Source: Gluconobacter vitians | Lineage (GTDB): Bacteria > Pseudomonadota > Alphaproteobacteria > Acetobacterales > Acetobacteraceae | Direction of reading: 5' to 3' | DNA: 64,000 nucleotides | NCBI RefSeq assembly: GCF_015244565.1 | Contig: NZ_JABCQG010000004.1 | Coordinates: 1 to 64,000 of the forward strand | In this document: positions 45,682 to 47,974 of the stretch, piece after piece | Layout: each line of letters starts with the position of its first letter | Numbering within the stretch: the stretch's first letter is position 1 | Position numbers and translations under genes: made by a program | Notes under the pieces: model-generated | What the model was told of the DNA's origin: nothing | What the model saw: the letters and a program-made list of their open reading frames with translations, nothing else | The model's database searches: none

Positions 45682-47040
45682 TCATGCTGCATTCAAGGGA
45701 GCGTTCTGCGGAACAACCTGCATGATCTGCGCCAGTTGTTCGAAGGCCTCCGCACGCGTGGAGCGTTCATCCCGATCCTGAGACAGAAACGCGTTCAGCC
45801 GTGGCATAAGTGCGATGGCTTCATCCACTTCCTGATCCGTGCCGGCCTTATAGGCACCAAGCCGGATCATGTCCGCCATGCGCTGATACGTCGCCATGGC
45901 GGCACGCGCCCGTCGCGTGAGGGCATTTTCTTCCGCCGAATTGCACCGTGGGACGGCACGCGAGAGGGAGCGTAGGATATCAATGGCAGGATAACGCCCC
46001 TGTTCCCCGATTTTGCGGTCGAGAATGATGTGACCGTCCAGAATGCCTCGCACAGCATCGGCGACAGGCTCGTTCTGATCGTCGCCTTCCACAAGAACCG
46101 TGAACAGCGCCGTAATCATCCCCTGATCGGGATATCCTGGCCCAGCTCTTTCCAGAAGTCGTGGAAGCTCGGCAAAGACTGACGGCGGATAGCCACGGGT
46201 CGCTGGCGGTTCTCCGGCAGACAGACCGATCTCACGCAGCGCCATGCAAAAGCGGGTCACGCTGTCCATCAGTAGCAGGACGGATTTGCCCCTGTCCCGA
46301 AAATATTCCGCGATCGCCATGGCGGACAATGCGGCTTCGCGACGCATCAGCGGCGGGGAGTCAGAAGTGGCGATCACCAGCACACTGCGGGCCAGCCCGT
46401 CCGGACCGAGATCGTCCTCGATGAACTCACGGACCTCACGTCCCCGCTCGCCAACCAGCGAAATCACCGCAACGTCACATTCCGCGCCTTTCGCCAGCAT
46501 GGACAGCAAAGTCGATTTCCCGACGCCCGATCCGGCAAAAAGCCCGAGCCTCTGGCCACGACGGCAGGTCGTGAATGTATCCAGGGCACGCACCCCAAGA
46601 TCGATACGCTCACCAAGACGGGCACGGCTGGCCGCATTCGGTGGAGGAGACTGGATCGGCTGCCGTTTGAATGACGGCAGCAGCGGCCCCTTCCCGTCAA
46701 TCGGCTGTCCCAGCGGATCAACAACCCGTCCCAGCCAGCCATCACTCACATTCAGACCACCATCACGACGATTCAGCGGCACCTTCGCCTCACATCCCGG
46801 ACCAATCCCTTCCAGAGAGCCAAAAGACATGAGGCGTGCCACGTCCCCCTGAAACCCTACAACCTCGGATTGTACGGACCGGCCATTCCGTGACTTTATA
46901 GCGACTCGGTCCCCAATCGTAACGAATCCCTCGAGTCCGATAACAGTCACGCACAGACCCACAACGTCTTTCACACTTCCCGTCACCCAGGTGCAGGTCA
47001 TATCGGAAAGCGCTGCAAGAAGCCTGTTATAGTTGCTCAT
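45682..47040 (-). CDS. fliI: Flagellar type III export ATPase FliI
   Basis: This encodes 452 residues. It powers the flagellar export apparatus. The P-loop GSGVGKST lies at about residues 170-177, preceded by GWLGRVVDPLGQPIDGKGPL, and followed by LVGERGREVREFIEDDLG and the arginine-finger region VTRFCMALREIGLSAGEPPATRGYPPSVFAELPRL (split at residues 270-305). I chose the ATG at 47040. The divergent ctrA-like gene shares a 190-base gap in which a CtrA-box-like sequence lies. Confidence 0.95.
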   Translation of the reverse strand: MSNYNRLLAALSDMTCTWVTGSVKDVVGLCVTVIGLEGFVTIGDRVAIKSRNGRSVQSEVVGFQGDVARLMSFGSLEGIGPGCEAKVPLNRRDGGLNVSDGWLGRVVDPLGQPIDGKGPLLPSFKRQPIQSPPPNAASRARLGERIDLGVRALDTFTTCRRGQRLGLFAGSGVGKSTLLSMLAKGAECDVAVISLVGERGREVREFIEDDLGPDGLARSVLVIATSDSPPLMRREAALSAMAIAEYFRDRGKSVLLLMDSVTRFCMALREIGLSAGEPPATRGYPPSVFAELPRLLERAGPGYPDQGMITALFTVLVEGDDQNEPVADAVRGILDGHIILDRKIGEQGRYPAIDILRSLSRAVPRCNSAEENALTRRARAAMATYQRMADMIRLGAYKAGTDQEVDEAIALMPRLNAFLSQDRDERSTRAEAFEQLAQIMQVVPQNAPLNAA

Positions 47041-47102
47041 AGTGCCAGTTTCTCGCCGTATTCTGCGGTTTGATCCCATCCTCAGAACCTACAACCTTCT
47101 CG

Positions 47103-47117
47103 TTAAAACATCCCTAA
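47103..47117. promoter_or_regulatory. Candidate CtrA-box
   Basis: TTAA-AACATCC-CTAA matches the TTAA-N7-TTAA consensus with one mismatch. It lies in the gap between the divergent fliI and ctrA-like genes, where autoregulation or flagellar control would be expected. Short half-sites occur by chance, so this is only a candidate. Confidence 0.45.
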
Positions 47118-47230: not shown

Positions 47231-47974
47231 ATGCGTATTCTTCTTGTCGATAGCGATCAGTCCGCCGCCGCCAGCCTGTCCCAGATCCTGCGGACCGCCT
47301 CCTTTACCGTGGACCACACACCGTCTGGCGAAGAGGCCATCGAGATGCTCCGTCATTATGATTATGACGTGGTTGTGCTTGAACTGATGCTGAACGACCT
47401 TGAAGGGTATGAAGTCATCCGGCGCGTCCGGACGGCCCGCATCACGACCCCTATTCTCGTCCTGTCTGCCCTGCTGCGCCCCCAGGCCAAGATCCGGGCA
47501 TTCTCGATGGGTGCAGACGACTATATGACCAGGCCCTATGACGCCGGCGAGCTGATCGCCCGTCTTCAGGCCGTCATGCGCCGCTCCCGCGGCTTTGCCG
47601 AACCGAAACTGCGCGTCGGAAATCTGGAACTGGATCTGAACGGCAAGAACGTCACCGTCGATGGGGCGCCGCTGCATCTGACGGGCAAGGAATATGCCAT
47701 CCTTGAGCTTCTGGTCATCCGCAAAGGCTCGGTGCTGACCAAGGACGCATTCCTCAACCACCTTTATGGTGGCATCGATGAGCCGGAAATGAAGATCATT
47801 GACGTCTTCATCTGCAAGCTGCGTCGCAAGCTCCAGAATGTCGGTGCAGGCAACCTGATCGCCACGGTCTGGGGCCGCGGCTACATCCTGCGTGAAGACG
47901 ACAGCCCGACCTCGGCACCTCTTCCGGAGACCGCCCCCCGGCATAATTCTCCGGTCATCGCTGCGACTGCCTGA
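47231..47974 (+). CDS. ctrA: CtrA-family response regulator with Glu at the phosphoacceptor position
   Basis: This encodes 247 residues. The C-terminal OmpR/PhoB-type DNA-binding domain (from about residue 125) is nearly CtrA-like: LHLTGKEYAILELL, VLTKDAFLNHLYGGIDEPE and KIIDVFICKLRRKL. The receiver domain aligns with Caulobacter CtrA without gaps, but residue 51 is Glu (codon GAA at 47381) where CtrA has the phosphorylated Asp, residue 101 is Arg in place of the conserved Lys, and residue 8 is Ser in place of one acidic residue. D51E is a known phosphomimetic in Caulobacter. The start is the ATG at 47231 with GGGAG upstream; the longer frame upstream is not conserved. Confidence 0.88.
   Translation: MRILLVDSDQSAAASLSQILRTASFTVDHTPSGEEAIEMLRHYDYDVVVLELMLNDLEGYEVIRRVRTARITTPILVLSALLRPQAKIRAFSMGADDYMTRPYDAGELIARLQAVMRRSRGFAEPKLRVGNLELDLNGKNVTVDGAPLHLTGKEYAILELLVIRKGSVLTKDAFLNHLYGGIDEPEMKIIDVFICKLRRKLQNVGAGNLIATVWGRGYILREDDSPTSAPLPETAPRHNSPVIAATA

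Follow-up and report, generated by a model that had tools for sequence, protein, structure and literature searches.

The window considered here is the whole analysed stretch of 64,000 nucleotides from the start of contig NZ_JABCQG010000004.1 of Gluconobacter vitians. On its forward strand, positions 47231..47974 code for a protein of 247 amino acids, an OmpR/PhoB-type CtrA orthologue with a pseudo-receiver, the ATG start of which is backed by the alignment of orthologues. The divergent neighbour on the reverse strand (45682..47079) is fliI, named as the flagellar export ATPase by reading the protein, while the putative genes glmM, ftsH and tilS, equally named by reading, lie downstream of ctrA on the opposite strand. 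With respect to identity, the top NCBIfam match of the ctrA product is the CtrA family NF045991 with 325.9 bits versus 161.8 bits for the next family, a score below the curated cut-off of 350 bits of a model whose name points to Rhodobacterales. In the tree, rooted on the CtrAs of other alphaproteobacteria, the protein is placed among the CtrAs of Acetobacteraceae, and its closest named relatives are those of Gluconobacter species with 85-93% identity. The genome holds 26 receiver-domain matches and no second CtrA, the next-best matches being regulators at about 35% identity, so that the concern of the initial annotation that a standard CtrA might be encoded elsewhere in the same genome falls away. 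Two closely similar OmpR-type regulators are encoded on different contigs of this genome (C35:7440-8165, L030, and C13:6277-6984, L031).

CtrA is a textbook phosphorelay-driven cell-cycle regulator. In this protein, codon 51 (GAA, 47381..47383, forward strand as for all codons given here) specifies glutamate in place of the phosphoacceptor aspartate, codon 8 (AGC, 47252..47254) specifies serine in place of the aspartate that is the second acidic Mg2+ ligand, and codon 101 (AGG, 47531..47533) specifies arginine in place of lysine, all three read directly as the initial annotation had stated. The acceptor pocket of a phosphorelay receiver, composed of Asp51, the acidic pair and the lysine, is consequently not intact, with Glu51, Ser8 and Arg101 in its place. 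The switch residues Ser79 (TCT, 47465..47467; T position) and Tyr98 (TAT, 47522..47524; Y/F position) are retained. The receiver with its Glu51 is matched above cut-off by PF00072 (81.9 bits), and the solved CtrA receiver structure 4qpj gives a match of equal length (query residues 1-118 versus chain residues 35-152, E 1.6e-30).

All 13 other Gluconobacter loci (L043, L044, L072-L082; 11 distinct proteins) combine Glu51 with Lys101. As a consequence, Glu51 is a genus trait and Arg101, highlighted together with it by the initial annotation, is a peculiarity of this one genome among the Gluconobacter read. The presence of Glu51 in each of the 11 other distinct proteins excludes a sequencing error at codon 51, and the broader suspicion of an artefact, be it an error or a paralogue mistaken for CtrA, is refuted by genus-wide Glu51, by the lack of another CtrA in the genome and by the fliI gene adjoining ctrA here as in 6 of the 7 Asp51 loci read; we regard its probability as negligible.

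How far Glu51 extends was assessed in 299 Acetobacteraceae genomes, 268 of which have a CtrA match at E 1e-40. The listed position was lacking for 118 of these 268; 80, mostly with weak or missing ChpT, were placed later and 38 were never placed. The residue was read in 180 genomes, five of them without a readable site 51, which leaves 175. The sample was composed of 60 genomes with the best-scoring loci (17 with clear ChpT), 80 mostly picked for missing ChpT (11 with clear ChpT) and 40 picked for ChpT presence (37 clear, 3 weak), and due to this non-random choice the class totals at site 51, Asp in 101 genomes, Glu in 53, Arg in 11, Ala in 4, His in 3 and Gly, Asn and Ser in one each, are not family frequencies. 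Named relatives with Glu51 are Neokomagataea, Tanticharoenia, Brytella, Acidomonas, Acetobacter musti, three Asaia, two Bombella and the strains ESL0709 and B3987, while three other Bombella/Parasaccharibacter records have Ala51. Judged by the sequences, Glu51 is a clade-wide state within a wider receiver decay in Acetobacteraceae and not special to the genome under study.

Several variants met in this survey deserve mention on their own. The Ala51 CtrAs of Bombella and Parasaccharibacter (L195, L196, L101, L113, L114) retain Ser79, Tyr98 and Lys101 and correspond in nature to the D51A allele, which cannot be phosphorylated. A CtrA-like group of 13 proteins (L217, L219-L221, L224-L229, L231, L233, L236) has a wholly degenerate pocket with Arg51 in 11, His51 in one and Ser51 in one. 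In these proteins position 79 is Ala or Thr, position 98 is Leu, and position 101 is mostly Asp, Ser or Asn. In Bombella dulcis (L111) and in G032 (L223) the ctrA frame matches residues 94-222 only and looks broken or truncated. A CtrA of Acetobacteraceae type (L091) stands in a record titled Acidobacteria bacterium, which is probably mislabelled or a mixed bin.

The phosphotransferase ChpT was searched for with the Pfam model PF10090 in the same 299 genomes, a match being called clear at an E-value below 1e-6; 239 E-values were analysed, of which 171 are under 2e-4 versus 174 genomes above the cut-off of the search itself. The canonical pocket (Asp8, Asp/Glu9, Asp51, Lys101) is present in 84 of the 175 genomes, with ChpT clear in 63, weak in 7 and none in 14, whereas among the 91 genomes with a broken pocket ChpT is clear in one (G133, with Glu51), weak in one and none in 89. 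Relatives with Asp51, which the initial annotation had named as a possible objection, thus do exist in the family, yet 63 of the 64 genomes with a clear ChpT have the canonical pocket. As ChpT diverges fast, a tailored profile was built from ten Acetobacteraceae ChpTs and run on 80 genomes, made up of the 53 with Glu51, the 17 with Asp51 and a broken pocket and 10 of the 21 canonical genomes with weak or missing ChpT by PF10090. It recovers a full ChpT in G133 and, among the ten canonical genomes, three full, one partial and six none. On the other hand, 52 of the 53 Glu51 genomes have no ChpT by PF10090 or by the tailored profile, and neither does the tailored profile find one in the 17 genomes that combine Asp51 with a broken pocket. 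The best scores in these ChpT-negative genomes reach at most 38 bits versus 138-175 bits for the four full ChpTs, and the low-scoring matches, situated in open frames of 385 residues or more, are probably kinases. In the G. vitians genome there is no PF10090 match at E 0.01, and the tailored profile reaches no more than 21.5 bits, within the reading frame of a kinase of 681 residues, which answers the question after ChpT raised by the initial annotation; absence of ChpT throughout holds at the sensitivity of these two profiles.

By the CckA models, two hybrid kinases of the G. vitians genome have a CckA-like catalytic part, the best with 310.6 bits versus a cut-off of 1000 that none of 60 genomes reaches, and many hybrid kinases score alike. 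A cluster of receiver proteins at C3:186832-190499 of this genome includes a kinase that is flanked by receivers at both termini and the catalytic part of which is CckA-like. Two small receivers, the only ones compared with the CpdR model and both from this genome, score far below its cut-off. The SciP and RcdA models, both of which match the Caulobacter control, have no match above cut-off in 60 Acetobacteraceae genomes of all classes, with a single SciP match below cut-off (G037); as they are lacking in all pocket classes, their absence is not tied to Glu51.

The initial annotation had proposed a regulator freed from phosphorelay control. With Asp51, Asp8 and ChpT missing in the G. vitians genome, and with the broken pocket tracking the absence of ChpT through the family sample, this proposal is well supported, and on these sequence grounds freedom of the Gluconobacter CtrA from the known CckA-ChpT-CtrA relay appears very likely. 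ChpT loss in this group is already known, as a degenerate relay without chpT was described for the Rhodospirillales cluster (Brilli et al., 2010; PMC2877005), and in another survey ctrA, gcrA and ccrM are present in 72-82% of Rhodospirillales genomes but chpT, cckA and divL in no more than 27-36% (PMC8116508). The Glu51 change is absent from the literature found, in which no earlier report of Glu51 in the CtrA of acetic acid bacteria came up, the subscription literature lying largely outside this search.

For the trees, the pocket columns of the alignment were masked. The tree of 200 rows omits seven short rows (five without site 51, G109 and G217) and adds 27 named rows; in it, Glu51 marks a group of 72 rows (62 Glu, 6 Ala, 4 Asp) that includes the named acetic acid bacteria and the genus-level groups g43, g60 and g73 and the basal node of which is not starred; since some of the added rows repeat sampled genomes, residue counts are given per genome. 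Separate Glu51 cases are G081/G146, G133, G148, G272 and the g41 group. The Glu label changes 11 times on this tree, at least 10 of these changes being forced by well supported branches, and 10 times, 8 of them forced, on a quick mixture-model tree of 124 rows that agrees in the main groups; these counts give no direction, and long branches blur placements, above all those of G148, G272 and g41. Two Asp51 groups sit inside the Glu51 clade, and the genus-level group g31, with an Acetobacter musti-like genome, has Glu, Asp and His at site 51. Nested among the Glu51 proteins, L177 and L183 (G046 and G126) show Asp51 with Asn8 and Arg101, either a reversion or the ancestral state retained.

For ChpT versus pocket, starred branches provide eight independent pairs, of which typically two agree, none disagrees and six show no difference (median p 0.5), which is too few events for significance; that the losses of ChpT and of the pocket go together stems mostly from a single old event. 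In the neighbouring group g56 and g71, Asp8 is lost, no ChpT was found and Asp51 is retained. G133 (L287; an 88% complete genome) retains ChpT and, apart from its Glu51, an intact acidic pocket, and is possibly an early stage. Both orders of loss may thus have occurred. A bolder reading is that Glu51 arose several times and on every occasion acted as a functioning phosphomimetic lock, by which CtrA, a regulator of the cell-cycle type, could persist without its relay as a level-controlled activator of motility, with G133 at the early stage at which the lock would precede relay loss; it would cover the large acetic acid clade, G081/G146 and G133, and less surely G148, G272 and g41, and we advance it tentatively, as a possibility that is less likely than not.

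Gene neighbourhoods were compared for seven Asp51 loci, picked for the closeness of chpT and ctrA, and for eleven Glu51 loci in stretches of 13.5-14.5 kb. In each of the former, chpT and ctrA are 5.6-6.1 kb apart; fliI adjoins ctrA in six of them, and the one locus read gene by gene has putative che genes between chpT and ctrA. In the latter, fliI adjoins ctrA in 6 of 11 and none has a ChpT match; among the other five, in some the stretch ends near ctrA or glmM lies upstream. The pair of fliI and ctrA is hence common but not universal.

What Glu51 does for the protein is the point at which the readings part. Among the 53 Glu51 genomes, S/T79 is kept in 53, Y98 in 50, K/R101 in 48 and D8 in 4, and counted per tree row the picture is the same (S/T79 in 72 of 72, Y98 in 69, K/R101 in 67, D8 in 5). 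Where site 51 is occupied by another residue than Asp or Glu, in 21 genomes, the corresponding numbers are 8 (S/T79), 6 (Y98) and 3 (K/R101), tallies to be read with the relatedness of the genomes in mind, as 13 of these 21 are one old group. The parts that bind Mg2+ and accept the phosphate are thus lost, while the parts that would read a negative charge at position 51 are retained, and a lock of the receiver by Glu51 appears likely.

The serious and main rival is drift: with ChpT lost, the receiver would have ceased to matter for phosphorylation, Asp51 would have changed neutrally to Glu, and CtrA would work as an unphosphorylated dimer regardless of the residue at site 51. The family provides material for such a view: 21 genomes in which PF10090 finds no ChpT have Ala, His, Arg, Asn, Gly or Ser at this site, and another 17, none of which has a clear ChpT, have Asp51 in a broken pocket. 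Moreover, site 51 is averagely conserved within the Glu51 clade, with 5 changes compared to a receiver median of 7 and 41% of receiver sites at 5 or fewer. Receivers without the aspartate are also reported to have Glu in its position more often than any other residue (PMC4395418, PMC12632262), with 26% of substitutions according to PMC4395418, the Asp to Glu exchange alone is often insufficient for constant activity and ChxR stays active after its natural Glu is replaced (PMC4395418). Against drift speak the 9 synonymous changes between GAA and GAG versus 5 amino acid changes at site 51 in the 72-row clade, in which site 8 changed 12 times, for a rough hand estimate puts the replacements expected under neutrality at several times the number of synonymous changes. 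Furthermore, Glu51 genomes keep the T, Y and K positions far more often than genomes with other residues, with the caveat on the comparison genomes given above. Taken together, we consider drift rather unlikely.

The winged-helix DNA-binding domain (47612..47896, forward strand; about residues 128-222) is strongly conserved with Asp51 CtrAs, having accumulated 367 changes in the Glu51 clade (72 rows) versus 502 in the Asp51 clade (75 rows), whereas receiver changes are about equal (926 versus 877). In a 20-row alignment (A1) of Glu51, Ala51 and Asp51 proteins, the recognition residues K188 I189 I190 D191 V192 F193, C195, K196, R198 and K200 are invariant, which bears out the remark of the initial annotation that this domain is very near to CtrA. 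Among the most accelerated receiver sites in the Glu51 clade are 14, 31, 55, 15, 80 and 8, several of which presumably belong to helix 1 or to loops close to the former active site. Read post hoc, this fits a receiver for which the docking of a phosphate donor has lost its importance.

The altered tempo at sites 14, 15, 31, 55 and 80 could alternatively reflect a receiver still switched by another input, such as a small molecule, a partner protein or another modification, and regulated pseudo-receivers are indeed described, with Rem inhibited by MirA (PMC12632262). As no candidate partner was seen among the neighbours, which are fliI and genes read as housekeeping, and the location of several accelerated sites near the former phosphotransfer site points, again post hoc, to relaxation, we judge such a switch to be improbable.

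As for the targets, the CtrA box is taken here as TTAA-N7-TTAA. A CtrA-like box of the form TTAA-N7-CTAA (47103..47117, forward strand) is located 128 bp upstream of ctrA, and a box with at most one mismatch occurs at -127 to -129 of ctrA in 12 of 12 Gluconobacter loci (two perfect), with a variable spacer. In the G. vitians genome a perfect TTAA-N7-TTAAC is found 42 bp upstream of putative fliO (named by reading), which is followed by fliP. All 26 Gluconobacter genomes have a box upstream of fliO-fliP, 17 of them perfect and 9 with one mismatch, one-mismatch boxes occurring elsewhere too within the compared stretches; the perfect site of G. vitians derives from the genome-wide scan, as the scan of the fliO-fliP loci, in which a contig end shifted the anchor, gave no box for this locus. 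Outside Gluconobacter, one of four loci has a fliO-fliP box, with one mismatch. Perfect boxes number 11 matches (8 places) in the G. vitians genome versus 5 for the reversed pattern, a weak excess that makes the boxes on their own weak evidence, and the window has 4 one-mismatch boxes versus a mean of 1.96 expected, a number that 10 of 100 shuffles reach and that is compatible with chance. Flagellar genes are reported, in the part of the survey available, to be under CtrA in all orders studied (PMC8116508).

Cumulatively, we favour as fairly probable that the Gluconobacter CtrA is a pseudo-receiver regulator outside the known phosphorelay that is biased to the active state, drives flagellar genes and its own gene and is controlled by its amount. 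ChpT would have dropped out of the CckA-ChpT-CtrA relay, and Glu51 would have replaced the phosphoacceptor, in an ancestor common to many acetic acid bacteria and some of their kin. Glu51, along with the retained Ser79, Tyr98 and Lys/Arg101, probably holds the receiver near the active, dimer-forming state without phosphorylation, and the conserved DNA-binding domain may then act on the CtrA-type boxes upstream of ctrA and of flagellar genes such as fliO-fliP, with the output set by the amount of CtrA. The active conformation, the binding to the candidate boxes and the control by level are what we infer from these features. The view of the initial annotation that the regulator is active all the time or controlled by its level is therefore reasonable given the kept switch residues, the kept DNA-binding domain and the conserved boxes, with constitutive activity as its inferred component.

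Compared with the CckA-ChpT-CtrA systems of Caulobacter, Brucella and Rhodobacter, the Gluconobacter protein is alike in orthology by sequence, in its DNA-binding domain, in its flagellar neighbour and in the CtrA-type boxes, but differs by the missing phosphoacceptor and Asp8 and by ChpT, SciP and RcdA not being found. Without Asp51, Asp8 and ChpT it cannot join the known relay in the known way, and annotation of these genes as an ordinary two-component CtrA is misleading. The substitution and the residue are identical to those of laboratory CtrA D51E, used as phosphomimetic allele, as the initial annotation had pointed out and as the available accounts of the work in Caulobacter (PMC12186491) and Rhodobacter capsulatus (PMC6363796) agree. 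In contrast to the laboratory allele, Glu51 of Gluconobacter is natural, clade-wide and accompanied by the loss of Asp8 and ChpT.

Response regulators without a phosphorylation site are likewise represented by ChxR, HP1043 and Rem, the latter a motility activator in Sinorhizobium and Agrobacterium (PMC12632262). Pseudo-receivers commonly have Glu at the place of the Asp and Arg at the place of the Lys, and what switches them on and off is singled out in this review as the main question still to be answered (PMC12632262). The choice between a lock and a product of decay for Glu at this site is treated as an open hypothesis in the available part of a 2025 review of pseudo-receivers. A large culturable group in which CtrA cannot receive a phosphate by the known route illustrates how such a regulator can survive the loss of its relay, and its stages stand side by side in Acetobacteraceae, from the canonical pocket to lost Asp8, Glu51, Ala/His/Arg51 and no CtrA match at threshold, which makes functional lock versus mere decay directly testable. 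By its sequence relationships, the CtrA of Gluconobacter is an orthologue turned into an aspartate-less receiver regulator together with the loss of its relay. In contrast to ChxR, HP1043 and Rem, it is here the CtrA orthologue itself that has changed, and relatives with Asp51 as well as intermediate stages survive in the same family.
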